From a virus, in IMG/VR virus record IMGVR_UViG_3300042472_000339, positions 1-39,778 of that record: a stretch of 39,778 nt of DNA; one strand, written 5' to 3'. The translations under genes and the position numbers were made by a program. Shown piece by piece: positions 14,215 through 20,584 of this stretch (within the stretch, counting starts at the first letter, position 1; every line of letters starts with the position of its first letter). Under the pieces are notes generated by a model, which did no database searches, was not told where the DNA came from, and saw only the letters and a list, made by a program, of their open reading frames with translations.

Positions 14215-15216
14215 TTAATCTTGAAACTTTGCCATGCGTTCTGCAAGCAATTCCTGAACCCTATCGTTATACGCCTTGTCCTTTGCCGCTGGGCTCGTGG
14301 TTTGGTATGCGGTAAATATCTTTGAAGCTTGGGAGTAAAGGTTGGCTATTGTGAAATTTGCCCTCAGCCATTTGTCATTCAATGACCACGCGGCTTGGAT
14401 AAACACCTTCAATGCCTCAATGCTATTGCCCTGCTTGTCTATTTTGTCAATGTATTGCATAAGGTTTTTCATTTGCCCTGCGTCTTTGGGCATCATTATG
14501 TAATGTCCGTTCTGGTCCGTTGGATACGCGGCACCCGATAACGCTTCAAACGTTTGGCAAAACACGGTAAAGGCGGCGTACGTGGGGGAGGGCTGGCGGT
14601 CGGCTCGGGATTCATTTTCTTTTTCTTTTTTTCGCCTGCTTTTTTCTTTTTCTTTTTCAACAAGGGAAACTAAGGTAAACGGGTTTACTTTGGGGCTTTG
14701 GAGATTTGTTTCAACTTTTGTACTTTCCCAATTATCAATTGTAACTTTTGCGAAGTGCGAAAATTCCGAAGGATTTTCAAAAGATATATCTGTTGTATTC
14801 TTTGAAGTATTCTTTGTTGTATTCTCTGTATTACATTCGTTAAATTCACCATTATACTTTTGTGATTTTAACTTATTCAGTTTAGTGGATTTCACTAATG
14901 TATTTTCGTTAATTGCGTTAATCAACAATGTGACGTTTATGTCGTAATGCGTTTTGGCGGGAATGCCATGAAGGGTAATCATTATAAATGGAAGTTCCTT
15001 TAATCTTGATTTTGCGCCCCTCAATTCATTTAAGGATAACATTGTTTCCTCCATGATTTCAGCGTCACTTTTGTAAAACTTGCGACCTTTGACGGCTGAG
15101 TACCAATACATGATTTGACTTAAAAGTAATCCAGCGTTAACGCTTCCAGTCAACTTTATGTAAATCGGGTAAACCGCTATCGGTCTTTGATTAAGGTTTA
15201 TTAAAATATCTTTCAT
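14215..15216 (-). CDS. Winged-helix replication initiator (replisome organiser type)
   Basis: 333 aa. Residues 25-105 form a winged-helix DNA-binding domain with the usual phage initiator pattern: AGLLLSQIMYWYS, then KSDAEIMEETMLSLNELRGAKSRL as the recognition region, then a wing ending PAKTHYDI. A low-complexity linker (about 125-205) rich in Asn/Thr/Ser and then Lys/Glu follows, and a helical C-terminal domain (210-300) that in such proteins contacts the helicase or loader. Three 12-bp repeats inside the linker coding sequence resemble origin iterons. It is preceded by a terminator, so it probably has a promoter within 15217-15233. Confidence 0.78.
   Translation of the reverse strand: MKDILINLNQRPIAVYPIYIKLTGSVNAGLLLSQIMYWYSAVKGRKFYKSDAEIMEETMLSLNELRGAKSRLKELPFIMITLHGIPAKTHYDINVTLLINAINENTLVKSTKLNKLKSQKYNGEFNECNTENTTKNTSKNTTDISFENPSEFSHFAKVTIDNWESTKVETNLQSPKVNPFTLVSLVEKEKEKSRRKKEKENESRADRQPSPTYAAFTVFCQTFEALSGAAYPTDQNGHYIMMPKDAGQMKNLMQYIDKIDKQGNSIEALKVFIQAAWSLNDKWLRANFTIANLYSQASKIFTAYQTTSPAAKDKAYNDRVQELLAERMAKFQD
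14795..14830. other. Three 12-bp direct repeats, candidate replication origin iterons
   Basis: GTATTC recurs at 14795, 14807 and 14819, each within a 12-nt unit (GTATTCTTTGAA, GTATTCTTTGTT, GTATTCTCTGTA). The surrounding 100 bp are AT-rich. Initiator genes of lambda-like phages carry their origin inside the linker region in this way. The repeats also encode NTTK/NTSK/NTTD, so a purely coding cause is possible. Confidence 0.4.
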
Positions 15217-16086: not shown

Positions 16087-16121
16087 AAAAAAAAATGCCA
16101 ACGAGTAGCAGTTCGTTGGCA
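16087..16121 (-). terminator. Intrinsic terminator upstream of the ParB-like gene
   Basis: Perfect 9-bp stem, 8-nt loop and a nine-T run on the minus strand. Ends either the methyltransferase operon, the candidate small RNA, or both. Confidence 0.88.
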
Positions 16122-16183
16122 AAGGTTAGAACAAAAATAGTTGTTCCAATTTCCTTTTGAATACCTGCTACGCCATTCAAAAG
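16087..16183 (-). ncRNA. Candidate structured small RNA (three hairpins, complementary loops)
   Basis: On the minus strand, hairpin 1 (16183-16154) has a 9-bp stem CTTTTGAAT/ATTCAAAAG and a 12-nt loop. Hairpin 2 (16146-16129) has a 6-bp stem GAACAA/TTGTTC. Hairpin 3 (16121-16096) has a 9-bp stem TGCCAACGA/TCGTTGGCA and is followed by nine T residues (16095-16087), a strong terminator. Loop 1 contains GTAGCAG and loop 3 contains CTGCTAC, perfect 7-nt complements, so a kissing interaction is possible. A -7-like box TATATTTAC at 16197-16189 would start the RNA right at hairpin 1. It could instead be the 3' UTR of the 16973-16209 operon or a DNA site for the ParB-like protein. Confidence 0.5.
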
Positions 16184-16188
16184 AATAC

Positions 16189-16197
16189 GTAAATATA
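16189..16197 (-). promoter_or_regulatory. -7-like box of the candidate small RNA
   Basis: TATATTTAC on the minus strand, within a 13-nt stretch TTTGTATATTTAC identical to that of the promoter at 7303-7315. No good -33 box is found at 16-nt spacing (GGAA instead of TTTG), so promoter activity is uncertain. Confidence 0.35.
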
Positions 16198-16208
16198 CAA
16201 AATATTAA

Positions 16209-16364
16209 TTACTTTCCCTTTCTTTTTTTCCACGGCGGATTCCCAATCGCGCTTTGCATTTCCATGTATTTTACCACGGCTGGCGGGGTTTCGTATGTCA
16301 CAGAGGCGCACGGATGCACCTCTGTCAAAACCTTGTCCAAGGCTGCTTTAATGAAGTTTGCCAT
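16209..16364 (-). CDS. Small hypothetical protein, 51 aa
   Basis: Starts MANFIKAALDKVL, ends WKKRKGK. The ATG follows the methyltransferase stop directly (TAAATG), which argues for translational coupling. The basic C-terminus and Pro-rich middle (TPPAV, GNPPW) give no family match. Confidence 0.6.
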   Translation of the reverse strand: MANFIKAALDKVLTEVHPCASVTYETPPAVVKYMEMQSAIGNPPWKKRKGK

Positions 16365-17147: not shown

Positions 17148-17561
17148 ATGATAAAATTAATAGTTGCAGGTCGCATTGGTCAGGACGCTGAAATAAAATC
17201 GGTTGGCGATACCACCGTTTGCTCTTTCTCGGTTGCTCATACGGAAAAGACGTTTGGTAATAATCCCACGGAAAAAACGGTTTGGGTCACTTGCTCAATG
17301 TGGGGTGAGCGTGGTTCAAAGCTTGCACCGCACTTGGTAAAGGGAACGTATGTCGTGGTCGAAGGCACAGGCGGCGTGAATGCGTATATGAAAAACGGAG
17401 AACCCACGGGAATCATTCGTTGCATGGTTAATAACATCGAATTTGGAGGCAAGGCAACGGCGGGGGAGAACACCTCTGGCGGGTATGTTAATCCATTGAC
17501 AAGTCCAGCCGTTCAGGAATTAAAAAAAGAATTAAACGCTGACGAACCATTCCCATTTTAA
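17148..17561 (+). CDS. ssb: Single-stranded DNA-binding protein
   Basis: 137 aa. The OB-fold spans about 1-105, with MIKLIVAGRIGQDAEIK at the start and TEKTVWVTCSMWGERGSKLAPHL in the centre. A short linker follows, then the acidic tip DEPFPF (132-137), matching the SSB C-terminal peptide that recruits replication and repair partners. It protects ssDNA during phage replication and recombination. It is the first gene of the rightward arm, directly behind the best promoter in the window, so it is probably expressed early even though it shares a strand with late genes. Confidence 0.95.
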   Translation: MIKLIVAGRIGQDAEIKSVGDTTVCSFSVAHTEKTFGNNPTEKTVWVTCSMWGERGSKLAPHLVKGTYVVVEGTGGVNAYMKNGEPTGIIRCMVNNIEFGGKATAGENTSGGYVNPLTSPAVQELKKELNADEPFPF

Positions 17562-17562
17562 T

Positions 17563-17787
17563 ATGACACCTGAGTATCAAAGGCAGTATCGGGAAAATAT
17601 GACCGAGTACCAAAAGCAAAAGTTAAGGGAATATTTTAGGCTTTATCACCAGAATCAATCGCCTGAGAAAAAGGCTGAGAAAAGAATTAGGAATCAAGCA
17701 TGGTATCAAGCGAATAAGGAAAGGGTGAATAAATACCAAATGGAAAGATATTACAGATTAAAAGAAAAGAAAAATGAATGTGAATAA
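17563..17787 (+). CDS. Small basic Arg/Lys/Tyr-rich protein, paralogue 3
   Basis: 74 aa starting MTPEYQRQYRENM, with repeated Y-x-x-N-x-x units and AWYQANKERVNKY. Related to the tandem pair at 8629-9130 in the opposite arm. It follows ssb by 1 nt. Highly charged and helical; nucleic-acid binding is inferred from composition only. Confidence 0.65.
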   Translation: MTPEYQRQYRENMTEYQKQKLREYFRLYHQNQSPEKKAEKRIRNQAWYQANKERVNKYQMERYYRLKEKKNECE

Positions 17788-17947
17788 ACAAACGCCCGCC
17801 GTTTTTTCGGTAAGCTATCGGGACGAAAAGATAAGAAAGAAGTTGTTAGACTTACAATTTCAACTCTGGAAGGAAACGAATGTCAAACACTCGATGGAGG
17901 ATGTATTAAGTATTTTATTGGATAATTACCAAAAGCACAATAAATGA
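17774..17947 (+). CDS. Small ribbon-helix-helix-like protein, 57 aa
   Basis: Overlaps the previous gene by 14 nt and the glycosyltransferase by 4 nt (ATGA). After a short N-terminus it reads FSVSYRDEKIRKKLLDL, then a loop and SMEDVLSILLDNYQK, the strand-helix-helix pattern of CopG/Arc-type regulators. The fold is suggested, not proven. If correct, it may be an autoregulator of the rightward arm. Confidence 0.55.
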   Translation: MNVNKQTPAVFSVSYRDEKIRKKLLDLQFQLWKETNVKHSMEDVLSILLDNYQKHNK

Positions 17948-18948
17948 GGTTAGGCATTGTAACCAATTTAACCAGCCCCACAACCGATTATTACCGTTCG
18001 GTAAATCCATTCATGCGGCTTCGTTCGCAAATGGTAAATCTAACCATTACCTATTTGAATCCTGAGACCGTAAAATGGTACGATTTTTACGACGTTGACG
18101 TTATCCTTTTCCAACGCCCCAACGGTGACGGCATGTTATCAATGATCGCGGAGGCAAAGAAGATGGGTAAAAAAATCATTCTTGACCACGACGATTTATT
18201 GCATGAGGTCAACGCCGCGAATCCAGCGTCGGCACACTTCGGGAAACCCCAGGTAAAAGAATCGGTTGAAAAGGCTTTTAAGTACGCAGATTTTATCATT
18301 GTTTCAACGCCCTTTCTTAAAGAGTTTTACAAACAATTCTTTGACGAAAGTAAAATAATGGTTATTCCAAATGCTATTGACTTCCATGTAACGCCGCTTT
18401 GCCCCGTGTCACCTGATAAGCTTGAGGCAAAGGTTAAACGCGTGTTGTGGCGTGGTTCAATGACGCACATAGAGGACTTGAAAACCGTTGATACATTTTG
18501 GCATTATGTAAGTGAACGCAAAGACACCGAGGTTGCATTCATTGGAATCCCTGAGTGGCTTGGCAAAACATTGTATCCCAATGTTAAGGTGATTCCCTGG
18601 AACAATTCCCTTTTCCAGTATTTCGAGCTGATAAAAAACAGTGCGGCTCATTATGCCGTGTTCCCTTTGACCAATGATAATTTTAACCAAAGCAAGTCAA
18701 ATAACTTTGCGATGGAAATGCTTGTCACTGGTTGCGTTCCTTATGCACCGAAGCAAATCACGGAGTTTAATGTTCCAGGGGTGCGGTTGTATGAAGGTTC
18801 GGACGATTTGTATTATCAATTTGAAAAGGCATTGGCAAAGGATGGGGATTATTTCAATCATTTGCAGGCAGGAAGGAAATGGCTTTTGACTGAGCGAAAT
18901 TTGCTCACAGTCAACAACAAAAGAAAACAAGTGTTAAAAGGAATATAA
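17944..18948 (+). CDS. GT-B fold glycosyltransferase (family 4-like)
   Basis: 334 aa. The N-terminal half has DVDVILFQRP and KIILDHDDLL strands; VIPNAIDF marks the inter-domain region. The C-terminal half has the RGSMTHIEDL start and an SNNFAMEMLVTGCVPYAP segment matching the nucleotide-sugar-binding E-rich motif of GT4-type enzymes. The donor sugar and acceptor cannot be read. In phages such enzymes modify DNA bases, virion proteins or host surface glycans. No hydroxymethyl-pyrimidine synthesis genes are visible, so base glucosylation has no obvious substrate here; virion or surface modification is more likely. Confidence 0.8.
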   Translation: MRLGIVTNLTSPTTDYYRSVNPFMRLRSQMVNLTITYLNPETVKWYDFYDVDVILFQRPNGDGMLSMIAEAKKMGKKIILDHDDLLHEVNAANPASAHFGKPQVKESVEKAFKYADFIIVSTPFLKEFYKQFFDESKIMVIPNAIDFHVTPLCPVSPDKLEAKVKRVLWRGSMTHIEDLKTVDTFWHYVSERKDTEVAFIGIPEWLGKTLYPNVKVIPWNNSLFQYFELIKNSAAHYAVFPLTNDNFNQSKSNNFAMEMLVTGCVPYAPKQITEFNVPGVRLYEGSDDLYYQFEKALAKDGDYFNHLQAGRKWLLTERNLLTVNNKRKQVLKGI

Positions 18949-19280
18949 TGACAACAGCATTTAAGGTAGATTGGTCAAAAATTATAAATCAACCAGAGGA
19001 AAAGTCTTTTGATATTTACTCGAATAATAAGGCGAATCCAATTCGTTGGTTGGAGCATGGTTATAATCAACTTGATTACGGTGAATACTTTACAAAAGAA
19101 ATATGGGACAAAGCAGACGCCATGCAAATGGAAATCATGGACAATTTTTCTCAATGGCTTCATGATAATGAATGGGAAATAAATCACACCGAGGCTACAT
19201 GGTTTCATTATAAAAACTTAAATAAAGATTATAAGTTTTCGGATGTTTACCAACTCTTTTTAAAAAGCAGGGAGGCATGA
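18948..19280 (+). CDS. Hypothetical protein, 110 aa
   Basis: Acidic and aromatic-rich (many Trp, Tyr, Asn). Starts one base into the glycosyltransferase stop (TAATG) and overlaps the ParB-methyltransferase gene by 4 nt. No domain recognised. AT-rich compared with the following gene. Confidence 0.6.
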   Translation: MTTAFKVDWSKIINQPEEKSFDIYSNNKANPIRWLEHGYNQLDYGEYFTKEIWDKADAMQMEIMDNFSQWLHDNEWEINHTEATWFHYKNLNKDYKFSDVYQLFLKSREA

Positions 19281-20584
19281 AGCTAAAGGATATTAAACCA
19301 AACCCAAACAACCCACGCGTCCTCAGGGACGAAAAGTTTCAAAAGCTAAAGCAAAGTATCACAGAGTTTCCTAAGATGCTTTCCCTTCGCCCAATGGTCA
19401 TTGATGAAAATAACGTGGTGCTTGGTGGCAACATGAGGCTTCGCGCCTTGCAGGAACTTGGATTCACGGACATTGAGGAGGCATGGGTAAAACGAAGCAG
19501 CGATTTAACTGAGGAGGAAAAGAGGCGGTTCATCATTGCGGACAACGTCGCCTTTGGGGAATGGGACTGGGACACACTGGCGAACGATTGGGAAGTCGTG
19601 GACTTGGAGGCATGGGGCTTGGATATACCGCAGTTTGAAAATGAGGTAGAGGAACTTGAGGCAAGTGAAGACGATTATGACGTGCCCGAATGGGGCATTG
19701 AAACGGACATTGTCATTGGTGACTTGTTCGAGATTGGGGAGCATCGGTTACTTTGTGGGGATTCAACGGACGCCTCTGACGTTGCTTTATTATTTGACGG
19801 CAAACTTGCAGATATGGTAATGACTGACCCACCTTACAATGTAGATTATGCGAGTAAAAATAAAATGCTTAATTATTCAGATAAAGGCGCAAGAATTCAA
19901 GATGACATTGAGAATGATAAAATGGACGATAATTCTTTTTATAAATTTTTATATGATTTTTATTTAGCATTAGGAACTTTTACAAAACAAGGCGGTTCGT
20001 GGTACGTATGGCATACAGACAACGAAAGAATTAATTTTACAAAAGCCTTTAAAGATTCAGGAATGTATTTTAGTCAATGTTTAATATGGGTAAAAAATAA
20101 TTTAGTTTTAGGTAGATTGGATTATCAAAAAAAACATGAAACCTGCCTATATGGATGGAAAGAAGGAGCGGGACATTATTTTACAAATCAAAGGACAAAC
20201 ACAACAGTAATTGAAGATAAGTTAGATATAAAAAAACTAACAAAAGACGAAATGAAAAAAATGCTAACTGAAATGTTAAGAGATAAAACAAAGTCAACAG
20301 TTATACATTGCGATAAACCACATCAAAGCGATTTACACCCAACAATGAAACCAATTTTATTAATAGCTCCATTAATTGAAAACAGTTCCAGAGTTGGCGA
20401 AATTGTAGCGGACGGCTTCCTCGGTTCAGGCTCCACCATGGTAGCCGCGCACCAATTAAAACGCCGTTGTTTTGGCATGGAACTTGAACCAAAGTATTGC
20501 GCCGTTATCATTGACCGCATGGCAAAGTTAGACCCGTCGTTAAAAATTACAAGGAATGGCAAGGAGTACAAAACAGCACAGTAA
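19277..20584 (+). CDS. ParB-domain / beta-class DNA methyltransferase fusion
   Basis: 435 aa. The N-terminal ParB-like domain (about 1-110) has KDIKPNPNNPR and VVLGGNMRLRAL (48-58). The C-terminal DNA amino-methyltransferase has catalytic DPPY at 184-187 and the SAM-binding FLGSGST at 381-387. Motif IV before motif I defines the beta class; DPPY favours N6-adenine methylation. The target-recognition region between them (about 19850-20400) is strikingly AT-rich compared with both ends, suggesting exchange of specificity. Likely protects phage DNA against host restriction or acts as an orphan modifier; no cognate endonuclease is adjacent. Confidence 0.9.
   Translation: MKLKDIKPNPNNPRVLRDEKFQKLKQSITEFPKMLSLRPMVIDENNVVLGGNMRLRALQELGFTDIEEAWVKRSSDLTEEEKRRFIIADNVAFGEWDWDTLANDWEVVDLEAWGLDIPQFENEVEELEASEDDYDVPEWGIETDIVIGDLFEIGEHRLLCGDSTDASDVALLFDGKLADMVMTDPPYNVDYASKNKMLNYSDKGARIQDDIENDKMDDNSFYKFLYDFYLALGTFTKQGGSWYVWHTDNERINFTKAFKDSGMYFSQCLIWVKNNLVLGRLDYQKKHETCLYGWKEGAGHYFTNQRTNTTVIEDKLDIKKLTKDEMKKMLTEMLRDKTKSTVIHCDKPHQSDLHPTMKPILLIAPLIENSSRVGEIVADGFLGSGSTMVAAHQLKRRCFGMELEPKYCAVIIDRMAKLDPSLKITRNGKEYKTAQ

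Follow-up and report, generated by a model that had tools for sequence, protein, structure and literature searches.

The window analysed here is the whole of IMG/VR virus record IMGVR_UViG_3300042472_000339, a stretch of 39,778 nt, and positions are counted on it unless a contig is named. Besides a terminase, a portal protein and a head protease, it encodes a leftward run of genes for a ParB-like protein, an O-like replication initiator, a dCTP deaminase and an exonuclease. The first of these matches PHROG 12305 ('ParB-like partition protein', E = 2.9e-28), with a Pfam ParB_N match only below the cut-off, and the nearest ParB relatives of its product are those of Flavobacterium phages. Directly before this gene run lies a putative leader RNA made of three hairpins (Table 1).

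On the far side of the RNA is a 51-aa ORF on the same strand, which has no family match in the family searches; the protein, which ends in ...GNPPWKKRKGK, recurs just 5' of the RNA in many related phages. Opposite to the RNA operon, a plus-strand region at 17148-20584 encodes an SSB protein, a protein that weakly matches glycosyltransferases and an N6/N4 DNA methylase.

Table 1. Features of the RNA locus in the window, and related features on other contigs
Feature	Position	Strand	Remark
Three-hairpin leader RNA, ~98 nt	16087..16184	-	inferred start to end of T-run
-7 promoter box TATATTTA	16190..16197	-	Bacteroidota TAnnTTTG type; 5 nt upstream of hairpin 1
Hairpin 1	16153..16184	-	arms 16184-16175 and 16162-16153; from fold
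Loop 1 kissing heptamer GTAGCAG	16165..16171	-	sequence and covariation
Hairpin 2	16126..16149	-	arms 16149-16141 and 16134-16126; fold and covariation
Hairpin 3, intrinsic terminator stem	16096..16121	-	fold and terminator prediction
Loop 3 kissing heptamer CTGCTAC	16105..16111	-	sequence and covariation
Nine-T terminator tail	16087..16095	-	directly 3' of hairpin 3
ParB-like gene, 266 aa	15265..16065	-	first gene downstream of the leader; T-run to ATG, 21 nt
Replication initiation O-like protein	14215..15216	-	next gene; phrog_9773, E = 6.4e-21
51-aa ORF	16209..16364	-	upstream of the RNA; stop codon 24 nt before it
Second-subfamily RNA	L271:1071-1166	-	
Second-subfamily RNA	L325:588-683	+	
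Second-subfamily RNA	L283:4821-4916	+	
ParB-like/methyltransferase fusion gene	L283:2800-4164	+	behind RNA
ParB-like/methyltransferase fusion gene	L045:4758-6023	-	behind RNA

Fold, promoter and terminator

The predicted RNA is far more stable than its composition would suggest, with a folding energy of -35.2 kcal/mol, whereas shuffled sequences average -16.1 (z = -6.3) and none of 200 reached so low a value. Its promoter box is of the type described as the Bacteroidota -7 consensus, TAnnTTTG (PMC7366714), and since the box lies so close to the first hairpin, transcription would start at that hairpin, as a first-pass annotation of this DNA had predicted. The same annotation had given the stems as 9, 6 and 9 bp; the third is indeed 9 bp, while the first two were underestimated, having 10-12 bp and 9 bp, respectively, in the minimum-energy fold. 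Its assignment of the third hairpin as a terminator agrees with our prediction, in which this hairpin and its T tail form the sole convincing terminator of the stretch from 15.2 to 17.2 kb. The loops of the first and third hairpins are exact complements over 7 nt (GTAGCAG and CTGCTAC), again as first described.

A family of related RNAs

Relatives were sought in IMG/VR phage contigs by a search with the ParB-like protein, by DNA patterns and with a covariance model. The protein search yielded 11 contigs that carry the gene, and the RNA lies upstream of it in all 11. The DNA patterns described only the promoter and hairpin 1 and made no demand for loop pairing; even so, all 60 distinct hits to the strict pattern have loops complementary over at least 6 nt. 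The first-pass annotation had judged the loop match to be above chance and had named loss of complementarity in homologous phages among the findings that would speak against the RNA; the relatives settle that the match exceeds chance. The covariance model (R2) was likewise blind to the loop contact, being built from the three stems alone with the pseudoknot left out, and the loops pair in all RNA copies that it found. It gives the window RNA 76.3 bits (E = 3.5e-13) and recovered 92 copies from 79 sources (at least 75 distinct contigs), representing 55 distinct aligned sequences; after weighting, these amount to about 22 effective sequences, and sequence counts should not be read as independent events. 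There are one or two copies per record in each of the 42 whole records searched. In several of the two-copy phages the second copy belongs to a second subfamily, which has an almost fixed hairpin 2 region (CTTCGGGACAATATCCGCATTGTT; Table 1).

The family has no counterpart in the collections that we searched. All 4227 families of Rfam 15, including c4 antisense RNA (RF01695), IsrK, Flavo-1 and phage pRNA, gave no match at the gathering threshold to the window or to eight family loci, the best sub-threshold match being to Qrr (21.3 bits, with 50 needed). Two members compared by BLAST with the phages of GenBank gave short chance matches only, and no description of this layout was found among open-licence papers. 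In GTDB genomes the strict pattern, which fixes the promoter gap at 5 nt and would catch about 70% of members, had no hits, and two hits to a second pattern were rejected by the covariance model as chance; no genuine member was found there at the sensitivity used. By these searches the RNA is an undescribed class, and the earlier statement that no such family had been described is borne out for Rfam 15.

None of the collections that we searched contains a cultured representative of the carriers. Judging from the promoter type and the ParB relatives, they are probably uncultured phages of the Flavobacteria type. They look lytic, as 21 contigs with a length of 27 kb or more, some of which may be incomplete, showed neither an integrase nor a serine recombinase (Phage_integrase PF00589, Recombinase PF07508).

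Covariation of the stems and of the loop helix

The alignment of the 55 distinct sequences (A3 for the loop helix) was compared with shuffles and with controls in which the pairing partner was slid by 1-3 columns. Over the stems and the loop helix together, 98.4% of the cells are paired, as against 80.1% in shuffles and 38-48% with the partner slid. Changes on both sides occur in 5 of the 8 aligned pairs of hairpin 1 and in 8 of the 9 pairs of hairpin 3, which is 100% paired, while hairpin 2 appears as a conserved helix with a variable loop. The stem cells include 98 G-U pairs but only 20 A-C on the RNA strand, which argues for function as an RNA of the minus strand.

The loop helix taken alone provides the cleanest signal. 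All seven of its pairs show double changes, and its covariation score is 0.801, compared to 0.194 +/- 0.021 in shuffles and at most 0.127 with the partner slid 1-3 columns. Among its cells, 378 are Watson-Crick, none is G-U and two are exceptions; the two arise because the GTGGAGAC/GTCTCCAC members, whose loops pair over 8 nt, are shifted in the alignment. Across the family, loop 1 and the terminator loop are joined by 7-9 Watson-Crick base pairs, written in 19 distinct loop-1 heptamers. As judged from this alignment, compensatory change shows that the loop pairing matters and is maintained by selection. The kissing-loop RNA suggested at the outset is strongly supported by these changes, which are the very changes in related phages that the first-pass annotation had proposed to look for.

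A covariation scan of all column pairs is led by the pairs named above and contains no competing or alternative helix of comparable strength; in particular, it reveals no mutually exclusive antiterminator structure. With one extra covarying pair (columns 12-24), loop 1 is reduced to some ten nucleotides.

Position before genes of DNA metabolism

The arrangement seen in the window is general. In all 82 distinct contexts, a -7 box of the form TA-N-N-TTT-R lies 5-7 nt upstream of the model start, and the ATG of a same-strand ORF follows 1-26 nt past the T-run; promoter and T-run share a strand in every context. Every one of the contexts thus has a predicted promoter, a structured RNA and a predicted intrinsic terminator directly before a start codon, as expected of an attenuator. 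Given the proximity of the ATG, the RNA would be a 5' leader, and transcription of the gene would have to continue through the terminator. In most members no separate promoter fits between the terminator and the ATG, and it is difficult to see how the gene could be expressed except by read-through. Phage genomes are compact, however, and the closeness of the next ATG is in part what one would expect in any case.

The genes that follow usually belong to DNA metabolism. They include genes for ParB-like proteins, ParB-methyltransferase fusions, MT-A70, Dam and N6/N4 methyltransferases, replication initiators, HNH-helicase, AP2-HNH and HTH proteins, and unknowns. The early suggestion of an attenuator for the ParB-like gene is therefore supported by position, but not as something specific to ParB, since many different genes follow. 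In the fusions, the N-terminal part of the ParB-like protein is joined to a DNA methyltransferase (Table 1).

Loop codes and cassette exchange

The same loop code can stand before different genes, and the same gene can stand behind different codes. There are at least 19 codes, and comparison of the contigs shows them to be independent of the gene behind. Such comparisons also show that the RNA is exchanged as a cassette between near-identical phages. Contigs L007 and L004 share 94% identity upstream of the RNA, 92% in the promoter and 96% downstream, whereas the RNAs themselves are only 57% identical; contigs L101 and L251 show the converse, identical RNAs preceded by unrelated sequence. By pairing energy (mean -10.0 kcal/mol for cognate and -3.2 kcal/mol for non-cognate combinations) the codes are mostly orthogonal, the exception being GTGGACA and GTGGACG.

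Records with two copies have two different codes in every combination seen. Because the two copies are mostly members of separate subfamilies, whose code repertoires differ, this difference is suggestive only and does not prove avoidance of cross-talk; we claim no significance for it. Eight records that seemed to carry GTAGCAG twice were a counting artefact of overlapping prefixes.

Possible trans targets were sought as copies of a phage's own loop heptamers elsewhere in its contigs. The 62 occurrences outside the RNA, against 46 expected, are inflated by redundant contigs and show neither a clear enrichment nor a clear site. In two groups (L336:483 and L339:1753) the phage's own loop-1 heptamer occurs exactly 59 nt upstream of the RNA, which a test over 81 contexts suggests to be coincidence. 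The window's own heptamer has no other occurrence on either strand of positions 1-39778, where about 3.8 would be expected; other phages show no such avoidance.

A proposed attenuator leader with a loop-loop code

We propose, with a probability of roughly 60%, that the RNA is a phage 5' leader of about 95 nt that serves both as an attenuator and as a small RNA, and in which loop-loop pairing with an exchangeable code sets the level of termination. That it is an attenuator leader of one kind or another can be said with somewhat more confidence, given its place between promoter and start codon. Host RNA polymerase would by default produce a short terminated RNA; read-through, either in a minority of the transcripts or conditionally, would allow expression of the gene. 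Perhaps the loop-loop pairing governs the frequency of termination, although we are less sure of this step. It could do so in cis, as a lock on the folded leader, or in trans, where the accumulated short RNA would pair with nascent leaders of the same code and thereby provide dosage feedback for the operon.

The trans option would give a reason for the diversification and swapping of codes, namely that phages thereby escape cross-regulation by co-infecting relatives, and the wholesale replacement of codes between near-identical phages would be explained by intermolecular recognition rather than by a purely internal contact. Against it, covariation would equally be expected of loops that pair within one molecule. 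A possible, if tentative, elaboration is a leader for self-recognition: short terminated copies would sense the abundance of same-code transcripts in the infected cell and set read-through into the replication genes, while codes would diversify, and be swapped by recombination, against cross-regulation. The RNA may in this way let phages distinguish between their own transcripts and those of rivals and, if so, would be the counterpart, in lytic phages, of plasmid incompatibility or of RNA immunity.

Whatever the mechanism, this is an undescribed class with unusually clean covariation support, including that for a tertiary or quaternary loop-loop contact, and it is rare for a loop code to combine strict complementarity with hypervariability and with independence of the gene that follows. 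The RNA is a compact and easily built system for asking whether an intrinsic terminator can be tuned through the pairing of RNA loops, and whether lytic phages maintain RNA codes that are orthogonal to those of their relatives. For the genetics of Bacteroidota, it could also be a source of orthogonal leaders that are ready for use.

Alternative readings

A purely cis-acting element is quite possible, although we would give it less than even odds. It could be a structural lock, or a nascent RNA that modifies RNA polymerase, with the diversity of codes arising by drift and recombination. The geometry is favorable: the hairpin 2 loop has 4-9 nt and the linkers have 2-7 nt, which is about what would bridge the far ends of a stack of hairpin 1, the kissing helix and hairpin 3, and by a rough estimate the linkers and hairpin 2 reach about 90 A, more than the approximately 70 A of the coaxial stack. 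A cis kiss would thus fit, with hairpin 2 in the role of spacer. The put RNA of phage HK022 offers a precedent, in that it lies immediately behind an early promoter and, as a nascent leader RNA, acts on polymerase to promote read-through (PMC9378689). It resembles the new RNA in its place directly after a promoter and in its size (about 70 nt), but it consists of two stem-loops with no loop-loop code and no internal terminator. Selection for distinct codes, moreover, fits better than drift with the complete replacement of a loop code between flanks that are 94-96% identical, and with a loop helix that shows no G-U intermediates while the stems hold 98.

It is unlikely that the RNA is instead a stand-alone small or structural RNA of the phage, in which loop pairing produces a compact fold or a multimer that acts in trans, the gene being a mere neighbor. 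The locus does constitute a complete predicted transcription unit with promoter and terminator, many unrelated genes follow it, and phage RNAs with kissing loops exist: those of ROOL and GOLLD are supported by covariation and some are intermolecular (PMC12286853). These RNAs, however, are large (GOLLD often exceeds 800 nt; PMC12286853), lie near tRNA islands and are not leaders. A free-standing RNA would also be expected sometimes at operon ends or facing away from the next gene, whereas a start codon follows within 26 nt in all 82 contexts, and the phages' own loop heptamers are not clearly enriched elsewhere.

Immunity of the P4 type, serving lysogeny or exclusion of superinfecting phages, is likewise unlikely here. 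In satellite phage P4, the CI RNA pairs with its own leader, stops the replication operon and thereby confers immunity (PMC4825925). This system is the closest in its working to the new RNA and, together with the P4 seqA-seqC leader and the P1 c4 antisense RNA, would share with it a phage leader, replication-type genes, RNA-RNA pairing and premature termination. Indeed, the new RNA is a short leader with self-complementary loop sites and swappable specificity, complementary to its own transcript and placed upstream of replication and DNA-metabolism genes. The P4 RNA, however, is encoded apart from its targets on a temperate element and pairs with two other sites rather than with its own terminator loop; in the new RNA both partners, loop 1 and the terminator loop, lie on one molecule. 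The c4 and IsrK families differ further in that neither gives an Rfam match. Nor is there a sign of lysogeny, with no integrase or recombinase of a temperate element in the 21 possibly incomplete contigs and no genuine GTDB member.

Finally, a DNA-level site, either a replication origin or an inverted repeat bound by the ParB-like product as the first-pass annotation had allowed, would agree with the adjacent ParB-like and replication genes and with the strictly Watson-Crick loop helix, but it is highly implausible in view of the G-U excess of the stems on the RNA strand, the invariable strand agreement of promoter and T-run, and the fact that in most members the gene downstream is not this ParB-like gene.

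Comparison with other RNA systems

A type III toxin-antitoxin RNA was considered and rejected: the genes downstream vary, with no constant endoribonuclease toxin, and the RNA is a single unit with no tandem repeats. The packaging RNA of phi29 also carries two complementary loops on one RNA, which pair between molecules and vary in sequence between phages. Its fold and site are different, and the new RNA occurs in at most two copies, with different codes and before early genes; the phage pRNA family of Rfam matched neither the window nor the eight family loci.

The plasmid copy-number systems, ColE1 RNAI/RNAII, pT181 and pIP501, use loop kissing over about 7 nt with exchangeable specificity to control replication genes, in the pT181 type by attenuation. 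There, the partner is an antisense RNA transcribed on its own from the other strand, whereas the new RNA carries both loops on one sense RNA. Matches of the covariance model to the reverse strand are weak mirror images of the hairpins.
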